Assembly: GCA_956465555.1 (NCBI GenBank) | Contig: OY101126.1 | Span: 972,501-1,036,500, forward strand | DNA: 64,000 nucleotides | Reading direction: 5' to 3' | Origin: Nitzschia sp. pyKryTriq1 | Taxonomy: Eukaryota > Bacillariophyta > Bacillariophyceae > Bacillariales > Bacillariaceae | Shown: positions 32,739-53,628 of the stretch, piece by piece | Numbering within the stretch: position 1 is the stretch's first letter | How the letters are laid out: every line of letters begins with the position of its first letter | Notes under the pieces: generated by a model | The model's input: only the letters and a program-made list of their open reading frames with translations | Database searches by the model: none | Told to the model about the DNA's origin: nothing | Program-made: the position numbers and the translations under genes

Positions 32739-33980
32739 TCACGAGTACTCGTAGAACTCTGGGCCACCAGATACTGCCCCCTGAATCCGTCGGAAACCCT
32801 CTTCTCTAATGGGAACGTGGATGATGCCAGTATGACTTGCCTGTAAGCTAAGATCGTGCCAATACTCCTGGATTTGGGGTTCGACTCCGCCAGTGATGGC
32901 CAGCAAGGCGGCACGAGTCCACATGCCATTGCGTTCTTGACGCCAATATTTGGCCCGAGGGTCGTCGTCGATTTTGACATCTAGCTCACCCCTCCGAGGC
33001 AGTGGGTGCAAAATGGCGCAATTCTCCTTCAGTAATGACAAATGATCTTCTTTGAGACTAAACTCCTCGTATGATTGTTGCGACTTTGTCCCATCGCCGT
33101 CATCGTGTTCGTCTTGGACGCGGGTCATGTACACGGCATCGGCGATTGGCAAGTGAGGAAGGAACTCTTCCGAGACAGTGTAGCTCACGCTACGGTCATT
33201 TAAGTAGTTCAAGACATCATCTCGCATACGAAAACCAGGTGGGGCACTGAAGATGATTTTGACGCCATGGAATAACGCCAATAGTTTGGAAAGACTCCGA
33301 ACGGTTCGTCCTCGATTCAAATCGCCAGCAAACAATATCGTTTTCCCTTCCACTCCACCAGATTTTTCGAAAGACCGACGAAGAGTATAAATATCCAGGA
33401 GCGCCTGTGTAGGATGCTGATCTTTCCCCGAGCCAGCATTCAAAACAGGGACGGGGCGGTCACTGCAATTCAGTACCCAGGCGGCACGCTCGGCGTGGGA
33501 TTCTTCCTTGTGGCGCAAAATGATAAAATCAAAGTAGGAACTAAACGTCCGGATCGTGTCGGAGAAGCTCTCGCCTTTGATCTCAGAACTAGTACTGGTA
33601 TCTCGAACATCGGTACATTTCATCCCCACAATATCGCAGGCGGTTTTGAAGCTCAAATACGTCCGAGTCGAAGCTTCGGCGAAGTATAGCATGGCTCGCT
33701 TGTGACGCAAACGGTTGGCCAGAAAGGTGGCTCCATTCTTGGTCTTGGAAATGCTTCGGATGATGTTCGTCAACACATATACACGATCCAATGTCCGTCG
33801 ATCGAATTGCTCTGCGTTCAAAGTGTGAAAGACGTTCGCCACATCGCCTTGGAACAACTTGTTTTTCTCGTTGAGAGAAAGAGCGCCGAATTCCTCCCAG
33901 GAGTATTTTTTGCAGTCTTTGAGCGTCAACGTTGAAATTTGGGCGGTCAAATCTTGAGCAGAGTAGAATCGATTTTCCAT
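32739..33980 (-). CDS. Aspartate carbamoyltransferase, stand-alone catalytic chain
   Basis: Single-exon gene of 413 aa. ATCase joins carbamoyl phosphate to aspartate to give carbamoyl-aspartate, the second step of pyrimidine synthesis. The signatures are complete: STRTYLSF at 104-111 (carbamoyl-phosphate site), IKGESFSDT with the mobile-loop Lys, HPTQALLD at 189-196, LNRGRTVRS, TRVQ (the Arg-x-Gln that binds aspartate) and HPLPRRGEL. DPRAKYWRQ near the C-terminus is also typical. It has an N-terminal extension of about 65 residues compared with bacterial PyrB but no clear targeting signal. It lies directly downstream of a second ATCase gene (34460-36043) on the same strand, 479 bp apart. Either this or its neighbour may be the housekeeping enzyme. 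Confidence 0.9.
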   Translation of the reverse strand: MENRFYSAQDLTAQISTLTLKDCKKYSWEEFGALSLNEKNKLFQGDVANVFHTLNAEQFDRRTLDRVYVLTNIIRSISKTKNGATFLANRLRHKRAMLYFAEASTRTYLSFKTACDIVGMKCTDVRDTSTSSEIKGESFSDTIRTFSSYFDFIILRHKEESHAERAAWVLNCSDRPVPVLNAGSGKDQHPTQALLDIYTLRRSFEKSGGVEGKTILFAGDLNRGRTVRSLSKLLALFHGVKIIFSAPPGFRMRDDVLNYLNDRSVSYTVSEEFLPHLPIADAVYMTRVQDEHDDGDGTKSQQSYEEFSLKEDHLSLLKENCAILHPLPRRGELDVKIDDDPRAKYWRQERNGMWTRAALLAITGGVEPQIQEYWHDLSLQASHTGIIHVPIREEGFRRIQGAVSGGPEFYEYS

Positions 33981-34459: not shown

Positions 34460-36043
34460 TTACAAGTCCCAGATTTCAGTGTATTCGTGGCGCTTTCCAC
34501 AGTAAAGGCAAGTGAAGGTTTCGCCGAGAGTTCGAAAGAAATGGGGCGGAACGCTCTGGTGGGCGGCTCGTGAAGTAATACAATCCGCATTTTTGCAGGA
34601 GATTTCATTGAAGTTGTAGATCCTTGGTGGCATGTCAAGCCTGTACTTGTGCTGGACGGAAGCTGATTTAATAACATTCACGGTGCAACCAGGCGAGACA
34701 GCGGCCAACTTTTTGATTTCCTCGGAGGTCATTTCCATAATGTCTGGGAGAGACATGATGCCCTTGAAGTTTTCACCGTCATTGCAATGAAACACGCCGT
34801 GCGAGCCTCGTACATTGAGTTTGAGGATGCGTCGAATTTTGGAAATACGATCCCAGATCTCTTCGAGGCTTTTACCCTTGGCAATGTGGTCGATGACGGT
34901 TCCGTCGTCCACCGGTTTGATGCCGACCTTGAAGCGATCTTCAACGTGTGTCTTGCGTGTGATGGGGATATCCTTGACGAACTTGTCATTTTTCTCTGCA
35001 GGAGGCAATCCGAGCCCTTTAAAGTCATGGCCGAGTTTTCCTGCCACGAGAGAAAGTTCAATGATACGAGTAAAGAACCCGTTGATTGCTTGTCCATCCC
35101 ACCCGTTCAGCTCAGTGTCATCGAGAAAGGTGGGGATGACTGGAGTTTCTCTGTGGCGTGGCAAGGGATGGTAGAATCTGGTGCCAGCCGGCAGCTCTTG
35201 CATCCACTTTTGTTGAAAGGTCACAGCCTTGCGCAACTCTTGCTCGCGGTCGCGAATCTCGTCACCCATCCGTTCTAGCTGCAAGCGAGTGAAGTACCAG
35301 CAGGTCGAGACTTTACCGGACTTCAAATATGCGTCAATGGAGGGATACTCACGGATTTCAAAGCCATTATCAAGCATTTGACTCTTGTAGGATTCCGGCA
35401 ACATCAATTCGGTTGGGGCCACCAAATCAACCACGACCTTGCGGAAAATCTTGAGTCCATCGGCCTTTGAGTGAACAGTACGACCGTGAAGCAAGTCTCC
35501 AATGAGAGCAACGTGGATATACGAATCATCCCACTTTTGTTGCTCTAGAAAGGTGAATTCGTCCAAGAATTCTTGCGTTGGATGCTCATGCCGACCGTCC
35601 CCAGCATTTATGAACACTGGCTTTTCTCGTCCGATCCGTTCGGCATAGGGCGCAAGCTGCTCCTCTAGTGCTAGGCAGACACCTTCCATCTGAGTGCGCA
35701 TGATGAAGATGGAACGCTTTCCGTACCCGACGAGCATTTTGATCGTGTCGATCAGAGACTCCTTTTTGACAAAAGAAGAAGTGGCAGCATCGAAAATGTT
35801 CAGTGTCACACCGTGGAAATTGGCGGCCGAGCGAAAGGATTCTTTCGTGCGCGTCGATGCTTCGAGGAACATGAGATAGACATTGAGTTCGGGATCTTCA
35901 ATGCGAAAGGGCGTCACATCTCCGCCAGGTGTTTCCCAGGCGGCCTTCAGATCGCGTGTCTTTTCGTACAGATAACGCTGCTCGTCCACGCTCAAATCTC
36001 CTGCTGCTGCAAGAGTGCGACCTTTAAACACATTCGAAGTCAT
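34460..36043 (-). CDS. Aspartate carbamoyltransferase, fused catalytic (PyrB) and regulatory (PyrI) chains
   Basis: Single-exon gene of 527 aa from the ATG at 36043. Residues 1-345 are the catalytic chain: STRTKESF at 63-70, VKKESL near 92-97, RTQ near 116-118, HEHPTQEFLDE at 152-162, LLHGRTVHS, TRLQ near 252 and HPLPRH at 292-297. Residues 372-527 match the bacterial/archaeal regulatory chain PyrI: DDGTVIDHIAKGK (the nucleotide-effector domain start), ILKLNVRGSHG, LAAVSPGCTVNVIKSASVQHKYRLDMP, and the zinc-binding pairs C483/C488 (CKNADC) and C512/C515 (CLYC). PyrI is the part that lets nucleotides control the enzyme in bacteria. Fused PyrBI occurs in a few bacteria and is not the usual eukaryotic form, which is CAD or a plant-type single chain. 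No plastid leader is obvious. Confidence 0.9.
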   Translation of the reverse strand: MTSNVFKGRTLAAAGDLSVDEQRYLYEKTRDLKAAWETPGGDVTPFRIEDPELNVYLMFLEASTRTKESFRSAANFHGVTLNIFDAATSSFVKKESLIDTIKMLVGYGKRSIFIMRTQMEGVCLALEEQLAPYAERIGREKPVFINAGDGRHEHPTQEFLDEFTFLEQQKWDDSYIHVALIGDLLHGRTVHSKADGLKIFRKVVVDLVAPTELMLPESYKSQMLDNGFEIREYPSIDAYLKSGKVSTCWYFTRLQLERMGDEIRDREQELRKAVTFQQKWMQELPAGTRFYHPLPRHRETPVIPTFLDDTELNGWDGQAINGFFTRIIELSLVAGKLGHDFKGLGLPPAEKNDKFVKDIPITRKTHVEDRFKVGIKPVDDGTVIDHIAKGKSLEEIWDRISKIRRILKLNVRGSHGVFHCNDGENFKGIMSLPDIMEMTSEEIKKLAAVSPGCTVNVIKSASVQHKYRLDMPPRIYNFNEISCKNADCITSRAAHQSVPPHFFRTLGETFTCLYCGKRHEYTEIWDL

Positions 36044-37246
36044 GATGGATAGTTGCAACTGTTCCTATCCCTTTGGGGGCTAGAGAGACTACAAGTCGAT
36101 TGTATGGTGGGGACTGTGTCGACGACGAGAACACCACCGGGATGCATGGGCGGAGCGAGATAGAGGATCTTTTTACCGGTCGTTTCACGCCTTTCTAGCT
36201 TTCTTGGATTTTTATTTTGTGGATGCGCGCGCATTGCTTTTGTGGCTTTTTTCGGATGGACGGATAGACAGCGAACTGGTGCGGGCGACGGAACGACGTC
36301 CGAAAAAATTGGATGATCGAGTGATGAGGATATACCGGTACGAGGAGTAACAAAGTAGAGAAGGACAAGACTGCTGAAGCCATTCTACGCTGCTGCTTTT
36401 GTAGTATTTTATGGCAGTAGCGGAAGGATGTTCGTGTAGTCGGATGTTGTTCGTAATCCAATGCGTGTTGCTCTTCTAAATGCAACAGCGCGGTATCACG
36501 AGTCATGTCCCGCACTCCTACTATCACTTGCAATCCCCTAGTAGTACTACTACTACTAGTAGGCACACCATGTCGACGAGCTACTTAATGCGATTTGTTC
36601 AAGTGAGGCGATCACAACAATTGCCTGATGTCAAGGAAGCATGTTCTTCTGGCGGTCTACTGTACGGTATGTATCACAACGACAGATTGATGTTTGTTCG
36701 ACCAGATTGAAGATCATGTCGTCAAAGAAAACTACTGTGGACCATTATTTTAGCCACCATCCGGCCATCATTTGCGGTTGAAGAATGTTGCGGAAAATTC
36801 CTTGACCGTGACACACCGTGCTTTGCACATGAAGGTCGACCAAAACTTCGTCGTTCAGGTTTTGCGAACCCTTATTATAGGTTCTCCAAAGACTGAATTA
36901 CTTAGGCAATCAAAAATCCGGGGTCGAACAACACTCTAAATAGCACGGCACTTTGGATCGAGGAATGCAACATCTGCGCGCATGCCTGCACATCATCTGA
37001 CGAAATTTGCAGCCGGCGGCAAGTATTACCAGTTTATGGCACAGTACTTTCATAAAATGACCGGATGACTTCCTGATTTCTCCTGATATGGTGGTAATGT
37101 CCAGAATAAATACGTTGCTGGATGTCACTGATGCCAAGAAAATTTGAAAACCGTTCTCTTCTGTCTCATCGCGAAAATCTGTCTCCAAACTGATGCCCCC
37201 CACTCTATTATAATATTGTATGTTCTGATACAAAGTCATTGAAATC
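36044..37246. other. Divergent intergenic region of 1.2 kb
   Basis: Separates the PyrBI gene (-) from the trypsin gene (+). It contains a CTAGTAGTACTACTACTACTAG near-palindrome around 36538-36560, a TATACCGGTACGAG word near 36331, and a TATTATAATATT box at about 37206-37217, some 30 bases before the trypsin ATG, which could be a TATA-like element. Short frames here have no family features. Confidence 0.45.
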
Positions 37247-43778: not shown

Positions 43779-46562
43779 TTATGGTTTGGATCCTCCTCGC
43801 TTGGAGTTGCTTGCTTGTTTAGACTGCTGAGCAAAGAGTTGGGCGATCTGAAAGCTTGTCGTTGCCTGCTCTGGCTTCTTGTCTGGTCGTCGCCTCTTGA
43901 ATCGCGGAAAGCGAAGCGCGACACCACGACCTTCTGGATCGTCCACGAGTCCGGCCCCCGCGGTGTGCTGTCGAGAAAGCGACATGTCCGCAAATGAAAC
44001 TTCAAACACTTCCATGGGCTTGAACCAAATCGGGGGAGATTCGTTGGTCACCACATAGGCTGACGACGGTCGGTTTTCAAAGCAGTTGACTCGAGATTCT
44101 CCAGCCTCCGTGATTGCCATTCCATCCCTCTGCTCGTCCTCCTCATCGCTTACATCGGATTCGCCGTCCTCATCTTCCTCCTCAGCAGCGTCCGGTTCAA
44201 TGTTGCCGTCTTTGCCCTCATCCACCGCTCCGTCCACTCCAACATCAGATGGATATGCAGTCCCATGAAAGTAAAACTCGCGCATACCCTCGTACATAGC
44301 ATCTGTGAACGTCATGCATCGACTGATGGATCGGTAGACGTCGTCTTCTTCGTCGTACACGGCCAGTAGTATCGGGGAAAGAAACGATTTTTGGGCCTTT
44401 CTGCCGCTACCATACCACGCTCCAATTGGAACCACATCAATGGTATCCGCATAGCCAGATACGTAGTCTCGTTTCACTTTTAGCCAGCTATTACTTCGTG
44501 TGCCAGCCTCATACGGACTCGAGATTTTCTGGGACAGCTTACCACCTTGTTCGGAGGCTTCATTGTTTGAGGTGCTTGTGCCAAGCATTTTTAACATCAG
44601 ACCTTCGGCACCCTTCCTTACAGCCTCTTCTAGAAAGGCGCAGATTCGACTCTCATCAAACTTTGAAAGTGGCTGCGACGTGACAAAGGCAAAGTCATTC
44701 GTTTCCTGAAAGTATTCTTCGAGTTTAGCCTGTCGTTGGTGAAGTGGCTGGTTGATGTATGATACACCATTGAGGTACATCAAATCGAACGCAAACACCT
44801 TGACTCGGACACCTTGTCCATCGTGGTTCTTCTTTCGTCGCGACAAGTCTTGAAAGGGCAGTAGGCGCATATCCTCTCCCTCTCCTTCAACGCCTACGAT
44901 CTCGGCGTCCAAGATAAATGACAGAGGTCGATTATTGTCACCATCGCATCTCGCTTCTAGGATTGCCTTGGCAGCATCGGGGTACTGCGTGGTTGTCTCG
45001 AGCATGTGTCTCGAAAAGAGTTTCATTGTTGTTCCGTCGGAATGTGCCTGGCATCGTACTCCATCATACTTCCACTCCATGGTCATGCAGTTGTTGAGTA
45101 GCCCATTATAGCCCACCATGACCTTGGCGACTTGTTCCAGAGAATGAGTGGGATGAGCCAGCATGGGAGCGATCGGTGTCAAAAGTTGGATGCTGCAATC
45201 CTTCTGCACTTGTTCCACGCCTCCCTTGAGAAGGGCAGTGATGATAGCATTTAGATTGGGACACACATCGTGCGTCTTCTGAACAATTTCCACTGCCCTT
45301 TTGGTTTCGTCCTCGCGGACGGCAAATGCCATGGCTAGAGCTGCGAGGACTGTCTTGACATTGGCTCCGACTCTCATATTTCCAATCAACAGTCGGACCA
45401 AAAATCGAATTTCGATCTTGCTGTTACACGCTCGCAGAAGCTGCAGTAAGATATGTTGCTTGGCTTCTCGACCATCCGTGGCCACAATTTTCTCAAAACT
45501 CTCGTACACTTGTAATATCGTCAGTGATTTTGCTGATGCAGTAGCAGCAGCAGTAAAAAAGGTTTTCTTCTGAAACAACGACGCGGCGGCATCTCCCATA
45601 TCCCCGTATTGACGGTACCCCTTGGAAAGCTGCATCCGCGAGGCACCCAAAATGGTCTGCAAGGCCTTCGAAAGCGCCGATCCGCCAATTTCCATGGGCG
45701 CCTGTTGATTTCCACCCCGGAATCCCAACACCAACAAAAGAGCACATGCCAATGTATTTGCTGTAGAAGCAGATGCAGATGCAGACGCAGATGCTGATGA
45801 TGATTCAACCTGCTCTGCTGGTTCAGTGATAATAATATGTGTTATGAATTTCTTGAGTATATCGAGCTTGACAAGGCGTTTCGTAGTATCCGTCAATTGC
45901 TGTAAAGTTTCAGCTAAGTATTCGAAAGAAATTTCAGTCGTACTCGTCTTGAACGCACTATTTCCCTTGAGTCGAGGTGGTGTCGGGATCGATGTGTTCC
46001 CCATGGCTGCTGACTCGGACGGTAAATGCTTTAGGGTCATGGTATCATCCGATGATGATTCGTCGATATCGATAATTTCGGGTTCACGTCCCTGAAGCGT
46101 ATACTCAGTCCTGGTAGTAGTACTCGTAGTACCCAACATGGAAGCTTCCTTTTTGGGTGGCGTCGACGATCGATGATGATGGTGATTCGATGATGCTGCA
46201 CCAAAGAAAACGTCCAGACGGGCCTGCTTTCTGCCACTGACCTTGCTGGGACTGGACGATTTCTTGTCGGATGGGGGTCGTTTCTTGGTAGCTATGAAGG
46301 GAGACGCGAGTTCTTTCGTGATGCTTGTATCGGGAGTTGTTGTGCTCGTCGTCGGCCCACTGGCAGTATTTGGATCATCGACACACAGAACATAATCTTC
46401 ATCGTTTCCAGCATCTTGTTGTTGCTGTTGTTGTTGATGAAAGAAGATTTCGACGGCACGCTCCAGGCTTCCATTGGCAGCCTCCAACAATTCACTGGCT
46501 CGTTCCGCTGTGATGCCGCTGCAAATGGACCGGAGCGTGGATACTTTCTCGTCGGCGTCCAT
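43779..46562 (-). CDS. LIG1: ATP-dependent DNA ligase I
   Basis: Single-exon gene of 927 aa. LIG1 joins Okazaki fragments and seals repair nicks in the nucleus. The nucleotidyl-transferase motif EWKYDGVR has the AMP-accepting Lys at 498; later motifs include FILDAEIVG, VFAFDLMYLNG, EGLMLKM and WLKVKRDY, and the end has GVALRFPRFKRRR...PEQATTS, the OB-fold signature of LIG1. The N-terminus starts with a UBA-like helical segment (about 11-42, ITAERASELLEAANGSLERAVEIFF), then poly-Gln, then QARLDVFF at 113-120, a perfect PCNA-interacting (PIP) box, as expected for a replication ligase. The DNA-binding domain lies between about 210 and 470. A long acidic insertion (DAAEEEDEDGESDVSDEEDEQ) interrupts the C-terminal domain. 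The UBA-like segment and the insertion are departures from animal LIG1. Confidence 0.93.
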   Translation of the reverse strand: MDADEKVSTLRSICSGITAERASELLEAANGSLERAVEIFFHQQQQQQQDAGNDEDYVLCVDDPNTASGPTTSTTTPDTSITKELASPFIATKKRPPSDKKSSSPSKVSGRKQARLDVFFGAASSNHHHHRSSTPPKKEASMLGTTSTTTRTEYTLQGREPEIIDIDESSSDDTMTLKHLPSESAAMGNTSIPTPPRLKGNSAFKTSTTEISFEYLAETLQQLTDTTKRLVKLDILKKFITHIIITEPAEQVESSSASASASASASTANTLACALLLVLGFRGGNQQAPMEIGGSALSKALQTILGASRMQLSKGYRQYGDMGDAAASLFQKKTFFTAAATASAKSLTILQVYESFEKIVATDGREAKQHILLQLLRACNSKIEIRFLVRLLIGNMRVGANVKTVLAALAMAFAVREDETKRAVEIVQKTHDVCPNLNAIITALLKGGVEQVQKDCSIQLLTPIAPMLAHPTHSLEQVAKVMVGYNGLLNNCMTMEWKYDGVRCQAHSDGTTMKLFSRHMLETTTQYPDAAKAILEARCDGDNNRPLSFILDAEIVGVEGEGEDMRLLPFQDLSRRKKNHDGQGVRVKVFAFDLMYLNGVSYINQPLHQRQAKLEEYFQETNDFAFVTSQPLSKFDESRICAFLEEAVRKGAEGLMLKMLGTSTSNNEASEQGGKLSQKISSPYEAGTRSNSWLKVKRDYVSGYADTIDVVPIGAWYGSGRKAQKSFLSPILLAVYDEEDDVYRSISRCMTFTDAMYEGMREFYFHGTAYPSDVGVDGAVDEGKDGNIEPDAAEEEDEDGESDVSDEEDEQRDGMAITEAGESRVNCFENRPSSAYVVTNESPPIWFKPMEVFEVSFADMSLSRQHTAGAGLVDDPEGRGVALRFPRFKRRRPDKKPEQATTSFQIAQLFAQQSKQASNSKRGGSKP

Positions 46563-47356: not shown

Positions 47357-49513
47357 ATGACACGAGTCGTAGAGCATCTTTTCTCTGCTGTGCCCCTCCT
47401 CTTGAGAGACAACAACAAAAACATGATGAGAGGAGATGATATCGGCCCTCGCAAGCGGCCTCGTTTGTCTTGTGGTGCTACTACCAGGACACCCCAAAAC
47501 GTTACATTTGCGCTGGAACTAGAGACGGTGTTTATTATACCAGCAAATGATGAAGTCGATTTCAATGACGGCGAAGATACAGAGAATGGCAACGCTGCCA
47601 TCTCCAACGACGATGGAACAGATACTCGACGCACCTGCGACGTGACGGTTCTATCCTCTCAGCACGGAAGGGCACGGCGTGAACTTCGAGAAATCACCCG
47701 CTTTGACCTTCAAGCGGCAGTCAAGTACGGCGTCAAGAAGCGGGCACACAATTGTCGCAGGACTGGGCAGCCTCGGTGGCAGTATACGTTCGGAAACATC
47801 GTATACATCACGGACGAATCCAGCAAGAAAGAAATCACATCTTTTCGTGAGCCGATTCACATTCAGCCAGCTACCATCACCAACAAAATGTTGGATAATC
47901 ATCGCGAAGACCGTCAAACCTTGCGGGAGGAACCTCTGATTTGTGTCACACATTCTATCGTGGTCATTGATCAAAGTGGATCCATGAAAACTTCGGATGT
48001 CACGGGATTTCGGAACCGATCTCAAGCTGCCTACGGAATACTCGCTTTGGAATACATTGCAGAGCAACTGCACCAACGTGGAGACGGCAAAAGTCTAGAC
48101 GCTGTTTCTGTCATTGAAATGAACGACGAGGCAACAGTGGTCTACGACCGCGAGCCATTGGACTGGATACTGTTCAACAAAGTACTTGATCGGCAAAAGA
48201 CGGCAGTGCCAAGATCCCACGGCAACTACAACAGTGCACTCCAGGCTGCAAAGCAGCTTATTTACAACGAGATTCTTAGCTTTGAGGACGCTGATCCTGG
48301 CGAAAGGCCTTCATATGCAATCATCTTCCTTTCAGATGGACGCCCTAGCGATGGTAAGCCCCACGAAAACGACCTGCGCAATCACATCCTCGCGGACATT
48401 GCCGGAAACCTCGGCTCCAAATTGTCCCTTCATACGATAGGCCTCGGCAACTCCAATGAAGACTTCTCAACGCTACGACAAATGTCCTCCTGGCTTAACG
48501 GCTTGTTTGATAGCAAAGCGACATTTGCGCAATCTCGTCTTAGCACCGCTCAGCTCGGTGCCGCCTTTTCATCTATTTCTACGAGCATGACGGCTACGAG
48601 AACAGAAGCCTTGTCGTCGGCGCCACGAGTGAAGAAAGTTGTACAGTTGCGAAGCAAATCGGTCCCTCAGGCTCAAAGAAAGTTTCAGGTATACGACCGT
48701 TCTGTCTCTCGCTGGCGCTATGACCACGAGGAGGATTCCTGGCCGTGGACCGGTCTACCTTTCAAGAACAATACGGCAAGTGGTTTTGATATGGAGATCG
48801 AACCATTTGGGATGGGCGCCGAACGCCTAGCCTACATGTTCCATGAAATAGACGCAAGCCACAAGCGCCTGGGGAAGCCAATGGTTGCCAAGGAGAGCAT
48901 AGCTATCGATGATGAAGAACGCAAGGTTGATTTCCACGAAAACTTTTGTCGAGTACAGTACAAGGCGAGTTTGCTCGCAAAGGAGTTCAACAAAGTTGTT
49001 GCTAGAGCGCCGAGTCTAAGCCCTGTCGATTCATCGATGCGTGTCCCTCTTGTGGAGTTCCTTAAATGCAATGTATATGAATACACAGCCGACGATGGAA
49101 TGAAATGCGGGCTATTGGTGGAGGACTTCTTGAAGGGAAAGTTTACCAAGTTCAACAGCAACAATGGGTACGTACGAAATAACAAGGGAGAGCGAAAAAT
49201 CGAACTTATTGGTGGTGAGGTCTACATGGCAGATTTTCTGCAGGCCTTTTCACATTGGACCCATTCGTCAACATCCGCAACATTTCTGGTCTGCGACCTA
49301 CAGGGCGTGCTTAACTTGGAGGGTCGACGTCCCAAGTTTATGCTCACCGACCCCTGTATCTGCTCCAAGCGTAAGCACGGTGAACGGAAGTTCGGACGTT
49401 CCGATATGGGGCCCAAGGGCTTTCATGTGTTTCGAAAGAATCACGTGTGCAATGAAGTCTGCAAAGGTCTTGGGCTTCCTGCTTTTGGCTCGAGGTACAG
49501 CACAAGTTCATAG
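47357..49513 (+). CDS. Von Willebrand A domain - alpha-kinase protein (VwkA-like)
   Basis: Single-exon gene of 718 aa. Residues 199-400 form a VWA domain with the metal-ion (MIDAS) motif DQSGSM at 205-210, a Thr/Asn segment and FLSDGRPSDG. Residues 455-715 match the atypical alpha-kinase fold: GMGAERLAYMFHEI (Gly-rich region), MVAKES with the ATP-binding Lys, VCDLQGV, LTDPCICS, and the zinc-coordinating end HVCNEVCKGLGLPAF. Alpha-kinases phosphorylate Ser/Thr in helical or linear targets; VwkA of Dictyostelium has the same VWA-then-kinase order and acts on myosin II and the contractile vacuole. The N-terminus (1-190) is hydrophilic with a basic cluster (PRKRPRLS), a possible nuclear signal. 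Substrate unknown. Confidence 0.88.
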   Translation: MTRVVEHLFSAVPLLLRDNNKNMMRGDDIGPRKRPRLSCGATTRTPQNVTFALELETVFIIPANDEVDFNDGEDTENGNAAISNDDGTDTRRTCDVTVLSSQHGRARRELREITRFDLQAAVKYGVKKRAHNCRRTGQPRWQYTFGNIVYITDESSKKEITSFREPIHIQPATITNKMLDNHREDRQTLREEPLICVTHSIVVIDQSGSMKTSDVTGFRNRSQAAYGILALEYIAEQLHQRGDGKSLDAVSVIEMNDEATVVYDREPLDWILFNKVLDRQKTAVPRSHGNYNSALQAAKQLIYNEILSFEDADPGERPSYAIIFLSDGRPSDGKPHENDLRNHILADIAGNLGSKLSLHTIGLGNSNEDFSTLRQMSSWLNGLFDSKATFAQSRLSTAQLGAAFSSISTSMTATRTEALSSAPRVKKVVQLRSKSVPQAQRKFQVYDRSVSRWRYDHEEDSWPWTGLPFKNNTASGFDMEIEPFGMGAERLAYMFHEIDASHKRLGKPMVAKESIAIDDEERKVDFHENFCRVQYKASLLAKEFNKVVARAPSLSPVDSSMRVPLVEFLKCNVYEYTADDGMKCGLLVEDFLKGKFTKFNSNNGYVRNNKGERKIELIGGEVYMADFLQAFSHWTHSSTSATFLVCDLQGVLNLEGRRPKFMLTDPCICSKRKHGERKFGRSDMGPKGFHVFRKNHVCNEVCKGLGLPAFGSRYSTSS

Positions 49514-49741: not shown

Positions 49742-52700
49742 TCACTGTTTCATATCAGGCGTCTTCCCTTCCTCTTCGAGAAGTTTTTTGATTGCCAAAT
49801 CAAGCGCGGCTGTTCCACTTTGGTGCAAGGATATCATCCTATCAAGCCGTCGATTTCGTCGGAAACCATTGGGGTGCCGATTTGAGATATTCTCAACCTG
49901 TTCCCGGAGGCCCGACTCGAGAGGATACCATACGTTGAGAGAGTCCTGCACTTTTGGTTTCTGGCTAGCAAGCAGCTTGTCGTAAATTGCTTTCCAACCT
50001 GGATCGCAGAGAACCCACTTGAGATTGAGCGGAAACGTGTATCCAACGTCAAGCTGGCGACTTAAGAAATGTTGTAGTTCCATAACGCCCATGTACTTCC
50101 AGGGCACAACGCTATCCGGGATATTCTCAGATATGACAAGGAATTCTTCATCTAGTTCTTGCGGAAAGTAGAAATTGAAGCACTCGGCACCGTGTCTCAC
50201 TGCCCCACTCCCTGCGGCTTTCAGCCGTTCCACAGCGTGCTCCATAATCGAGTAGGACTTCGGATCTAGCATCCAAACGTCCACAAGACATTGAAAGAAG
50301 CTGTTAGTTGATTTGGTATCAAGTCTCTGTCAACGATAAAGTGAGGTGCGACCGGCGACCACTCACCTCCGAAACCAAAACGTGGGAACTCTGGATGGAA
50401 TCCGTTCATAGTAGCCGCTTTCAAAACTTCCAACCAACGGCTCGTCCAATTCTTCTCTGAAGGTGGGCTATCAAGAATACCCTGTATTTCATCGACGCAC
50501 CACTTCAATGTATTTATCTGATCCGGCGGAAGAGGTTTCTGGAAAGGAACGGCCCTCGTTCCAACAAGTAAACAGTCGAAATCCGAAACCACGGGCTTCA
50601 CATATTCATCTTCCTCATATGCCATCAGCAGCTCAAACGGATTCATGGGATCCCCCGCATCAGAATTCTGATACAAAACTGCCCGAGGATTCCCTTCTTT
50701 TGCCTTGGCTTGAAGGGCACCAATGTTCATATCCTGAAACGCGGGCTGTGAGGGACGTCCTGTATCGTAGATGGAGTCGGGCTCCCGGGTGATATCTTGC
50801 CTGACAATATAAGCTTCCCAAAACAAGCGCAACGGAATTTCAATGCCAAACACATCCGGCGAGTAGTCATCAACGTAGGTGATGGACGGATCACCTAAGT
50901 CCAAGAGTAGCATTTCGTTCGCAACCTTTCGTGTATCGCCATCGATATCCTTCTCTGCGAGTTTCGTTTTTGCTTCTTCCACTGCCTTCACCATCTCCTC
51001 TGCGACTGCTTCAAGATTTTCAGCTGCGGTATCCCGATCGCCTCTCGCGTTCCGGGAGAAAAACAGACGAACTGTCGCATGCTTGGATAGCTTTTTCACC
51101 ATACTTTTGTGAGTATTTTCGCTAATCTGCAAGAAAGGTACAAATGCCGACAGTTTCCCACGCTTGGCAGACTTTCCCTTGATATCAAGGCCTTTCCCAA
51201 CTGCTTCACCGGTCATCATTTTCTTAATGGCTTCATAGCTAGTTGGCCTCCAAACTGTGAATACAGACGATTTGTGAAAGAATTTGGACAATATCGAAAT
51301 GTTCTTCGTTTCCAGGCCTTTCTCCTCGATCTCATCGGCTCCTGCTTGCGAAATTTCAGTGAAAAATTTGAGAATTTGGTATCGCGGGTCTACCTTTCGA
51401 AAAGTGCTCATCCACTCAACGCTGGCTGCGCGTAAAATCTCCCTACCCCACGACCCTTCGGCAACTAGTACAAGGGTTCTTCGCTCTTGAGCCAGTTTTT
51501 GTTTCTCGGCCGACTTTAAAAGCACTTTCTCCTCAAATGCCTTGACTTTACTGTGCCATAGTATTTCGGATGGAGTACGAGTAAGATCCCAATCGTCCGG
51601 AATAGAAACGACCACCTCCGCCTCATCATCTACTTCCACCCAAAACCTGCGCAGGCTTGGTTTCACGAACCGAAAGAAATATCTTTCGTCCGAAAAATCG
51701 TGATCCCGTGTCACATGCTCCAGGAGGTTGAATGTTCGTGCTAGCGCTCTACCCACCTCCACAGCTTCCTCACGAGACTTGCAGACTTTGATAAGGTAAT
51801 CTACGGCATCACTGCCTATAAATGTATCCTTGTACACTCGCATGTGGAATCTATGGTCTTTGACTTCGATGTTTGCTTCCAGATCCTTGGCTATGTTGCG
51901 AAGCGTCGCCGTATCCATATCCAGCTGAATCAGACTCAAACCTCCCGTGATTTCGTTGTCCTTGTTGAATCTATAAAATAGACCTTCATCTTTCAACTCG
52001 TGATCTTTTGTAACATGGTCGTAAAGATTGTATTCGTTATGCAATCGACGTCCAATGAGGAGTGCATCTTGTCGGTTCGCACAAAATTGTTCAAGAAAAT
52101 CCACGGCTTCGCTCCCCAGAAATGTGTCCTTGTATGACTTCAAGTGGTACCTATGCGTCGACACCTGGACGCCTTGACGCAAGGCTCTAGCAATGTCCGG
52201 CAATGATCTTTTCGCACTCTTCACAGCCCGTTCCACATCATCCAAGGACGCATCACAGAATCGAAAGAACAAGTACTCATCTTTGAGCTCGTGGTCTCCA
52301 GTAACATGCCGAAATGTTCCGAAGAGCTTTACAATCTTGCGCCCTAATTTGACAGCTTGCCTTCGAGAGTCAGTATACGCAGACAAAAAGTCGACGGCCT
52401 CGGTGGCAATGAAAGTGTCTGGATAAAGTCGAGCGTGATAACGATGTGTTCCAACTTTGATGCTTCTTCGGAGTTTCTCCGCAATATCCTTGAGCTGCTC
52501 CGTCGTCATGGGAGAGGATGGTACCTGGCCAGGGTACCTCCTATCATACTCATCTGTAAATCGAAAAAAGAGATAATCGTCCGAGAATTCATGGTTGCCC
52601 CCCGCCACATGTTCAAACCAATGGAACTCTTGCGCCATTTGTCGACCCAACTGCACTGCTTCTCGTCGGGTGTTTGCCAAACTTGAATGAACAATGAAAT

Positions 52701-53628
52701 CCACAGCTTGGCTCGCTATGAAGGTATCCGCATAGGATTTACCCCGCCATTTGTGATCCCTTATCCGAACTCCGTACTCCAAAGCCATTGCGGCGTTCAA
52801 GAGAGAGTTCTGACCGTTCGACGAACTCAGGGCTTGTGCAGCCGTGAGCGTTGAAGAAGGCTGTCGCCGTTGAGACTTGTTAGTGAATCGATAAAATAGA
52901 TAGTCGTCTTCAAATGGTTTTTCCTGCGCCGAGTGCTCGAATAGATTAAGCTCCTTGAACAAAATTCGACCCAATCGTACGGCTTCACGTCGTGTTACCA
53001 CAAAACCACTTTTCACGAGGAAATCTACCACCTCGCTACCAACAAAAGTTTCTTTGTAGATTTTCAAACGATATCGTCGATTTAACACCACGACCCCCTT
53101 TTCCAAAGCAGCGGCAATTTCTACCAGTGTCATCGTTTTGGCTTGGTCGGGAGTAATTGGAGCTGTCCGTTCTTCCGTCGGTACATAACGGAAATACAGG
53201 TATGCATCTTGGAACAAGTGATCGCTAGTAACATGCTCGAATAGCCGATATTCGCGTTGCAATGCTTGACCTATTTTCACGGCATAACTCCTTGAACAAC
53301 GTTCAAGTTCCACCAACACATCGACTGCTTGACTCCCAATGAAACAGTTATGGTAGGCTGTCAAATGATACCGATGCGTTTCGGCCTTGACACGTTCTTC
53401 AAATTTGTTCAGAATATATTCCAGATTTGGAATTACAACCTCTTGTGTCGTTGACGATGGCGTTGCAAGGTCGAGGCTGTGAAACTCCCCCATGAACGCC
53501 ACATCGTCGTTCGATGAACCTTCCACAATCCCGACGCTCGACTGGGAGGCATCCAAGTCTGATTTCTCTCGGGAGCCCATGCCGCTATGGTTTGAGCCAC
53601 GCGCCAGCTGTTGCAATAGGCGCTTCAT
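49742..53628 (-). CDS. Six-DEP-domain protein fused to an edema-factor/CyaA/ExoY-like domain
   Basis: Two exons, 50367-53628 and 49742-50265, with a 101-bp phase-1 intron (GTGAGT...GATGCTAG); 1261 aa. Without splicing the first exon runs to a stop inside the intron. The join reads RFGFG|DPKSYSIMEHAV. Six tandem DEP domains occupy about 80-148, 179-248, 287-358, 389-458, 486-555 and 586-655, each with THRYH/DTFIGSEAVDFL/...FFRF. From about 730 the sequence follows the edema factor/CyaA/ExoY nucleotidyl cyclase family: VFTVWRPT with VGKGLDIKGKS (to 820) against FRP...TKGLNVHGKSS, then KLSAFVPF, KPVVSDFD (Asp1016, Asp1018) against KPLTADYD, and GAVRHGAECFN (1109-1118) against VVNHGTEQDN. DEP domains usually mediate membrane or GPCR/RGS contacts. 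This is an intact host gene, not a toxin; whether the C-terminal domain is an active cyclase cannot be read from the sequence. Confidence 0.82.

Follow-up and report, generated by a model that had tools for sequence, protein, structure and literature searches.

A predicted six-DEP class II nucleotidyl cyclase in the diatom Nitzschia sp. pyKryTriq1 and its algal relatives

Class II nucleotidyl cyclases, e.g. oedema factor (EF), CyaA, ExoY and the ExoY domain of MARTX toxins, have been presented as host-activated bacterial toxins (PMC10553838, PMC5150216). Barrio-Hernandez et al. 2023 (PMC10584675) reported that algal proteins partly match oedema factor structurally and suggested toxin systems. 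Adenylate cyclase has been reported in diatoms, and class II is not named in the available part of that source (PMC3727952). Here we analyse a gene that joins six DEP domains to a class II cyclase domain and lies at positions 49742..53628 (minus strand) of a 64,000-nucleotide stretch of Nitzschia sp. pyKryTriq1 (contig OY101126.1, positions 972,501 to 1,036,500; hereafter the window). Judging from its sequence, we consider it likely that the product of this gene is an intracellular cyclase of class II, which makes a cyclic nucleotide second messenger under the control of its six-DEP N-terminal array.

The gene appears intact and spliced, as a first-pass annotation of the window had claimed. 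Its reading frame is open from the ATG at 53628, and removal of a 101-bp intron gives a 1261-aa protein. This intron ranked top among 50 frame-keeping splice candidates (642.1 versus 631.4 bits for the runner-up) when scored on a family profile from which the window protein was excluded, and the junction-spanning GFGDPKSY equals the homologue consensus, in agreement with the 101-bp intron. The gene is located on a 1.65-Mb contig (G000:C12) of the 40.65-Mb genome. Its features are as follows, with DEP boundaries set by us from Pfam and from a profile of the protein's own DEP domains.

49742..53628, minus strand: whole gene, six DEP domains and class II cyclase domain, 1261 aa when spliced
50367..53628, minus strand: exon 1, residues 1–1087 plus one base
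50266..50366, minus strand: 101-bp GT-AG intron, GTGAGT...GCTAG, splice choice by family-profile score
49742..50265, minus strand: exon 2, switch-B-like region and C-terminus
53185..53427, minus strand: DEP 1, residues 68–148
52879..53106, minus strand: DEP 2, residues 175–250
52555..52785, minus strand: DEP 3, residues 282–358
52258..52491, minus strand: DEP 4, residues 380–457
51964..52206, minus strand: DEP 5, residues 475–555
51664..51906, minus strand: DEP 6, residues 575–655
49838..51414, minus strand: class II nucleotidyl cyclase domain, residues ~739–1230, intron inside, assigned by sequence searches and homologue folds
51169..51252, minus strand: putative phosphate-binding stretch WRP...GKGLDIKGKS (R794, K812, K817, K819)
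50575..50586, minus strand: putative metal-binding SDFD (D1016, D1018)
50174..50194, minus strand: HGAECFN, switch-B-like (H1112, E1115, N1118)

The six tandem DEP repeats described in the first-pass annotation are borne out by Pfam hmmscan, in which PF00610 scores 312 bits over six stretches (cut-off 32.7). The top PDB sequence match is the tandem DEP of DEPTOR (E 1.9e-18). DEP domains are common to the window protein and to the DEP regulators DEPTOR, P-Rex1/2, Epac2 and LYCHOS; none of these is known to contain a class II cyclase domain.

The C-terminal half carries the five cyclase sites in the order claimed earlier, i.e. WRP (793–795), GKGL..KGKS (811–820), SAFVPF (827–832), KPVVSDFD (1011–1018) and HGAECFN (1112–1118), and they span 326 residues, close to the ~330 first estimated. 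The further claim that the last two sites depend on splicing holds for HGAECFN (50194–50174) but not for KPVVSDFD, because the latter lies in exon 1 (SDFD at 50586–50575).

That this resemblance exceeds chance is supported by profile, fold and family evidence. When a profile built from six algal cores (A2) was run against the PDB up to E 1, 8/8 matches were EF (best E 1.2e-5) or CyaA (0.43) chains; a second profile of 64 longer rows (A1) matched EF at E 0.0013, with unrelated rows beginning at E 0.25. Models of two homologues, 58–60% identical to the window protein, match the EF/CyaA/ExoY catalytic-core fold, with 13–18% identity in the structural alignments with bacterial toxins. A first homologue search returned 531 sequences at E 0.001, and all 120 matches listed, the window open reading frame (ORF) among them, carry a precomputed PF03497.23 label (the model that we ran ourselves was PF03497.21). 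The relation of the C-terminal domain to EF, CyaA and ExoY is confirmed by homologue fold models and by kept active-site residues. The class III cyclase family PF00211 gave no row up to E 1 in an hmmscan of both exon ORFs.

Active-site correspondences to EF and ExoY were set by order and spacing rather than by residue-level alignment, with reference positions from PMC10553838 and PMC9223806. The conserved Arg, two Lys, Asp-x-Asp and His are all there (R794, K812, K819, D1016, D1018 and H1112); D1016/D1018 are the counterpart of the EF metal site D491/D493 (PMC9223806), and H1112 that of EF H577 and Vn-ExoY H753 (PMC10553838). K817 occupies the position where ExoYs bear a Lys and EF has His351 (PMC10553838). 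In ExoYs, mutating that Lys lowers activity 12- to 14-fold, and mutating the first Lys or the His lowers it by four orders of magnitude (PMC10553838). All nine residues (R794, K812, K817, K819, D1016, D1018, H1112, E1115 and N1118) are identical in 310/310 complete cores, drawn from 321 sequences after omission of 11 (seven because their cores are incomplete or split, three as tandem proteins, and one being the unspliced copy of the window gene). The reference Lys positions in EF are K346 and K353, and E1115 and N1118 come after the switch-B His as their counterparts do in EF. An earlier set of 209 domain rows, which combined the window gene and its paralogue with 204 out of the 205 proteins found by then (three entering as two rows each), kept the nine residues in 205 rows, the exceptions being three shortened rows and one tandem second domain; in that set the nine fall within 41 of 422 columns that are at least 98.5% identical. 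Three relatives (P0002, P0003 and P0004) each contain a tandem pair of class II cyclase domains.

Three homologue searches, in which candidates were restricted in length and, for the first and second search, in number as well, gave 531, 137 and 753 homologues, respectively, with 120 matches listed each. Among the matches listed, named relatives belong to the diatoms or to the dinoflagellates (Effrenium, Symbiodinium, Alexandrium), and the closest named ones are diatoms, e.g. Seminavis, Nitzschia and Cylindrotheca. DEP domains occur in 32/321 sequences by the profile of the window protein's own six DEPs, with six in ten other proteins and seven in five. A survey for the same DEP-cyclase order, proposed with the first-pass annotation, finds it again in, e.g., Seminavis (seven DEP) and Nitzschia (five) proteins. 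Precomputed labels mark DEP in 28/120 first-search matches listed (window ORF included), PDEase_I, i.e. phosphodiesterase (PDE), in 23/120 and cyclic nucleotide monophosphate (cNMP)-binding domains in 19/120 second-search matches listed, and cNMP-binding domains in 37/120 third-search matches listed. Our hmmscan of seven labelled proteins verified DEP in 2/2, PDE in 2/2, cNMP-binding in 2/2 and ion channel in 1/2, the channel label of P0198 not being reproduced at E 0.001; the labels LRR, macro and PH come solely from precomputed annotation. The six-DEP relative P0038 is 72% identical across 349 residues of the cyclase part, and its ORF stops soon past SDFD without the HGAECFN site; it may contain the same intron as the window gene.

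In a careful tree of 58 rows picked from the 310, 17 DEP rows and two rows without detected DEP form one clade (100/99), five PDE rows form a single clade (100/100) and a 12-row side with the named dinoflagellates is set apart (99/99). A quick tree of 109 rows unites all 27 complete-core DEP rows with the same two non-DEP rows (98); five DEP-bearing sequences, LRR-labelled P0203 among them, are absent from both trees. The DEP-cyclase architecture is one branch within a large algal family. The quick tree places P0153, labelled Alexandrium, with centric diatoms, and this sequence may be a contaminant.

In this genome, three protein queries detected no class II cyclase loci beyond two, the first look being heuristic. 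The second locus (L005:3060-5339, minus strand, on the same contig and ~0.96 Mb from the window gene) is a 759-aa ORF without DEP and with a low-complexity tail; it is 43% identical to the window protein and groups with other diatoms in the tree. A PDE-bearing frame at G000:C15:240051-241553 is 43% identical to the PDE part (residues 852–1333) of P0111 from Cyclostephanos, and a protein query found no class II cyclase match beside it on that contig. From these sequences, cyclase and PDE are apparently split in this genome and fused in Cyclostephanos P0111.

The same genome contains matches to class III cyclase (PF00211, 102), PDE (58) and cNMP-binding (52) domains, exon pieces counted. Equal-score pairs of PF00211 matches occur on contigs C1 and C3; several PF00211 matches lie within ~1–2 kb of PDE matches. 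The class III fold differs from the class II fold, and the two are encoded by separate genes here; they share a presumed product class and PDE fusions. Seminavis has class III cyclase/PDE fusions (PMC8027222); accordingly, in cyclase/PDE proteins the class II domain seems to take the equivalent place.

Compared with the bacterial toxins, the algal domain has a common fold (in homologue models), the Arg/Lys/Lys triphosphate set, Asp-x-Asp and the switch-B His, and it shares with ExoY the Lys that replaces EF His351. In contrast, the window gene is eukaryotic and contains an intron, it carries a DEP array instead of secretion or injection parts, and its K819–D1016 spacing is 197 residues, compared with 130 in Vn-ExoY (PMC10553838 numbering). 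The first-pass annotation regarded the architecture as undescribed. No paper on DEP or PDE fusions of this domain was found among the titles and abstract starts of the matches listed from the open-licence literature. The general algal likeness to oedema factor was already published (PMC10584675); by its description, that algal cluster is probably the same family as the window protein. The available part of that paper treats it briefly, in some sentences and a single figure panel, without mention of DEP, PDE or cNMP-binding fusions or of residues, and the words 'algae' and 'eukaryotic homolog' are absent from the available text of the review PMC9223806.

By analogy with the bacterial enzymes (PMC10553838), (i) D1016 and D1018 would hold two metal ions; (ii) H1112 would bind the catalytic metal and stack on the base; (iii) R794, K812, K817 and K819 would either hold the triphosphate or form part of the pocket lining; and (iv) the products would be 3',5'-cNMP and pyrophosphate. 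More loosely, the DEP array may bring the enzyme to a membrane or to a receptor/G-protein complex, or alternatively it may keep the enzyme inactive as long as no partner is bound. The switch regions may depend for their ordering on a eukaryotic cofactor, a part played in the toxins by calmodulin or actin.

Several points weigh against this interpretation. The profile check proposed earlier gave a score below cut-off on the window protein (PF03497.21, hmmscan: 14.3 bits, E 0.041, cut-off 25), and the same model was above cut-off in 0/7 relatives scanned. The proposed structural comparison did recover the EF/CyaA/ExoY fold, but on models of two homologues and not of the spliced window protein, and with low target-normalised Foldseek TM-scores (0.19–0.42), perhaps caused by differing lobe placement. 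Enzymatic activity is a prediction, and the sequence does not specify substrate, product or activator; the proposed role of the DEP array follows from analogy with known DEP proteins, through PDB matches and the functions of those proteins. Besides these points, the single-sequence PDB match to EF is weak (E 0.025), and NCBIfam models matched nothing in the cyclase part of 6 proteins. A whole-genome search with PF03497.21 was blank, but is uninformative as 14 control genomes were equally blank.

As the activity of the family is predicted, the domain could instead be a binding-only pseudo-cyclase, whose former active site would serve to sense nucleoside triphosphates or cyclic nucleotides without catalysis. 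In the second domain of P0004, two of the nine residues are changed, position 794 being D and 819 being P (the row may be misaligned), so that residue loss can occur in the family. We nevertheless consider the binding-only reading unlikely, given that the nine catalytic-type residues, including metal ligands dispensable for mere binding, are kept throughout the complete cores, a set from which the tandem proteins are left out. The evidence favours an enzyme over a binding-only descendant, and cyclic-nucleotide synthesis is the best explanation because the active site is kept across two algal groups and the family shows fusions with a cNMP-destroying enzyme or a cNMP-sensing domain.

The toxin-like fold of the two homologue models and the suggestion in PMC10584675 would also accord with an algal toxin or defence protein. 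This reading is very unlikely in our view: the N-terminus of the window protein lacks a hydrophobic signal-like segment, relatives bear DEP, PDE, cNMP-binding and channel domains, which are signalling modules, and the single clade of 17 DEP rows fits a kept cellular role. Intron, DEP array and N-terminus alike do not fit a secreted or injected bacterial protein. A recent gain from bacteria, or a contaminant joined through assembly error, could draw on the fold having first been described in bacteria and on only two loci having been found in this genome. It is hardly credible, however, with an intron present, a 1.65-Mb host contig and ten other six-DEP proteins; two scans of a prokaryote species collection also found no relative, albeit with patterns of the algal family that distant bacterial members, the toxins included, would escape. 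No relative was found in viral contigs scanned with A1 and A2, and a viral structure library gave no match at E ≤ 0.001.

The neighbouring genes in the window are described here for completeness. The ORF at 47357–49513 (plus strand), tail to tail with the DEP-cyclase gene, contains an alpha-kinase domain and a VWA-like stretch under the Pfam cut-off. At 43779–46562 (minus strand), one ORF joins a UBA-like domain to an ATP-dependent DNA ligase. Another at 34460–36058 (minus strand) contains OTCace_N (the aspartate/ornithine carbamoyltransferase domain) and PyrI regulatory-chain domains, resembling a fused aspartate carbamoyltransferase, and is adjoined by a second carbamoyltransferase gene at 32739–33980 (minus strand).

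The many diatom and dinoflagellate relatives suggest that a toxin-type core is used as an ordinary algal signalling enzyme. A more far-reaching idea, which we regard as possible but doubtful, is that class II cyclases form a native and diverse second-messenger enzyme family in diatoms and dinoflagellates, where they are linked with modules of the DEP, PDE, cNMP-binding and channel type, and that the bacterial toxins are captured offshoots of such eukaryotic enzymes; this would explain the dependence of the toxins on eukaryotic partners such as calmodulin or actin. If there is indeed an extensive eukaryotic branch whose active site is intact and which has signalling partners, second-messenger biology in eukaryotes would gain a cyclase class, the question of where the toxins came from would become testable, and cyclic-nucleotide signalling in diatoms and dinoflagellates would probably go beyond class III enzymes.
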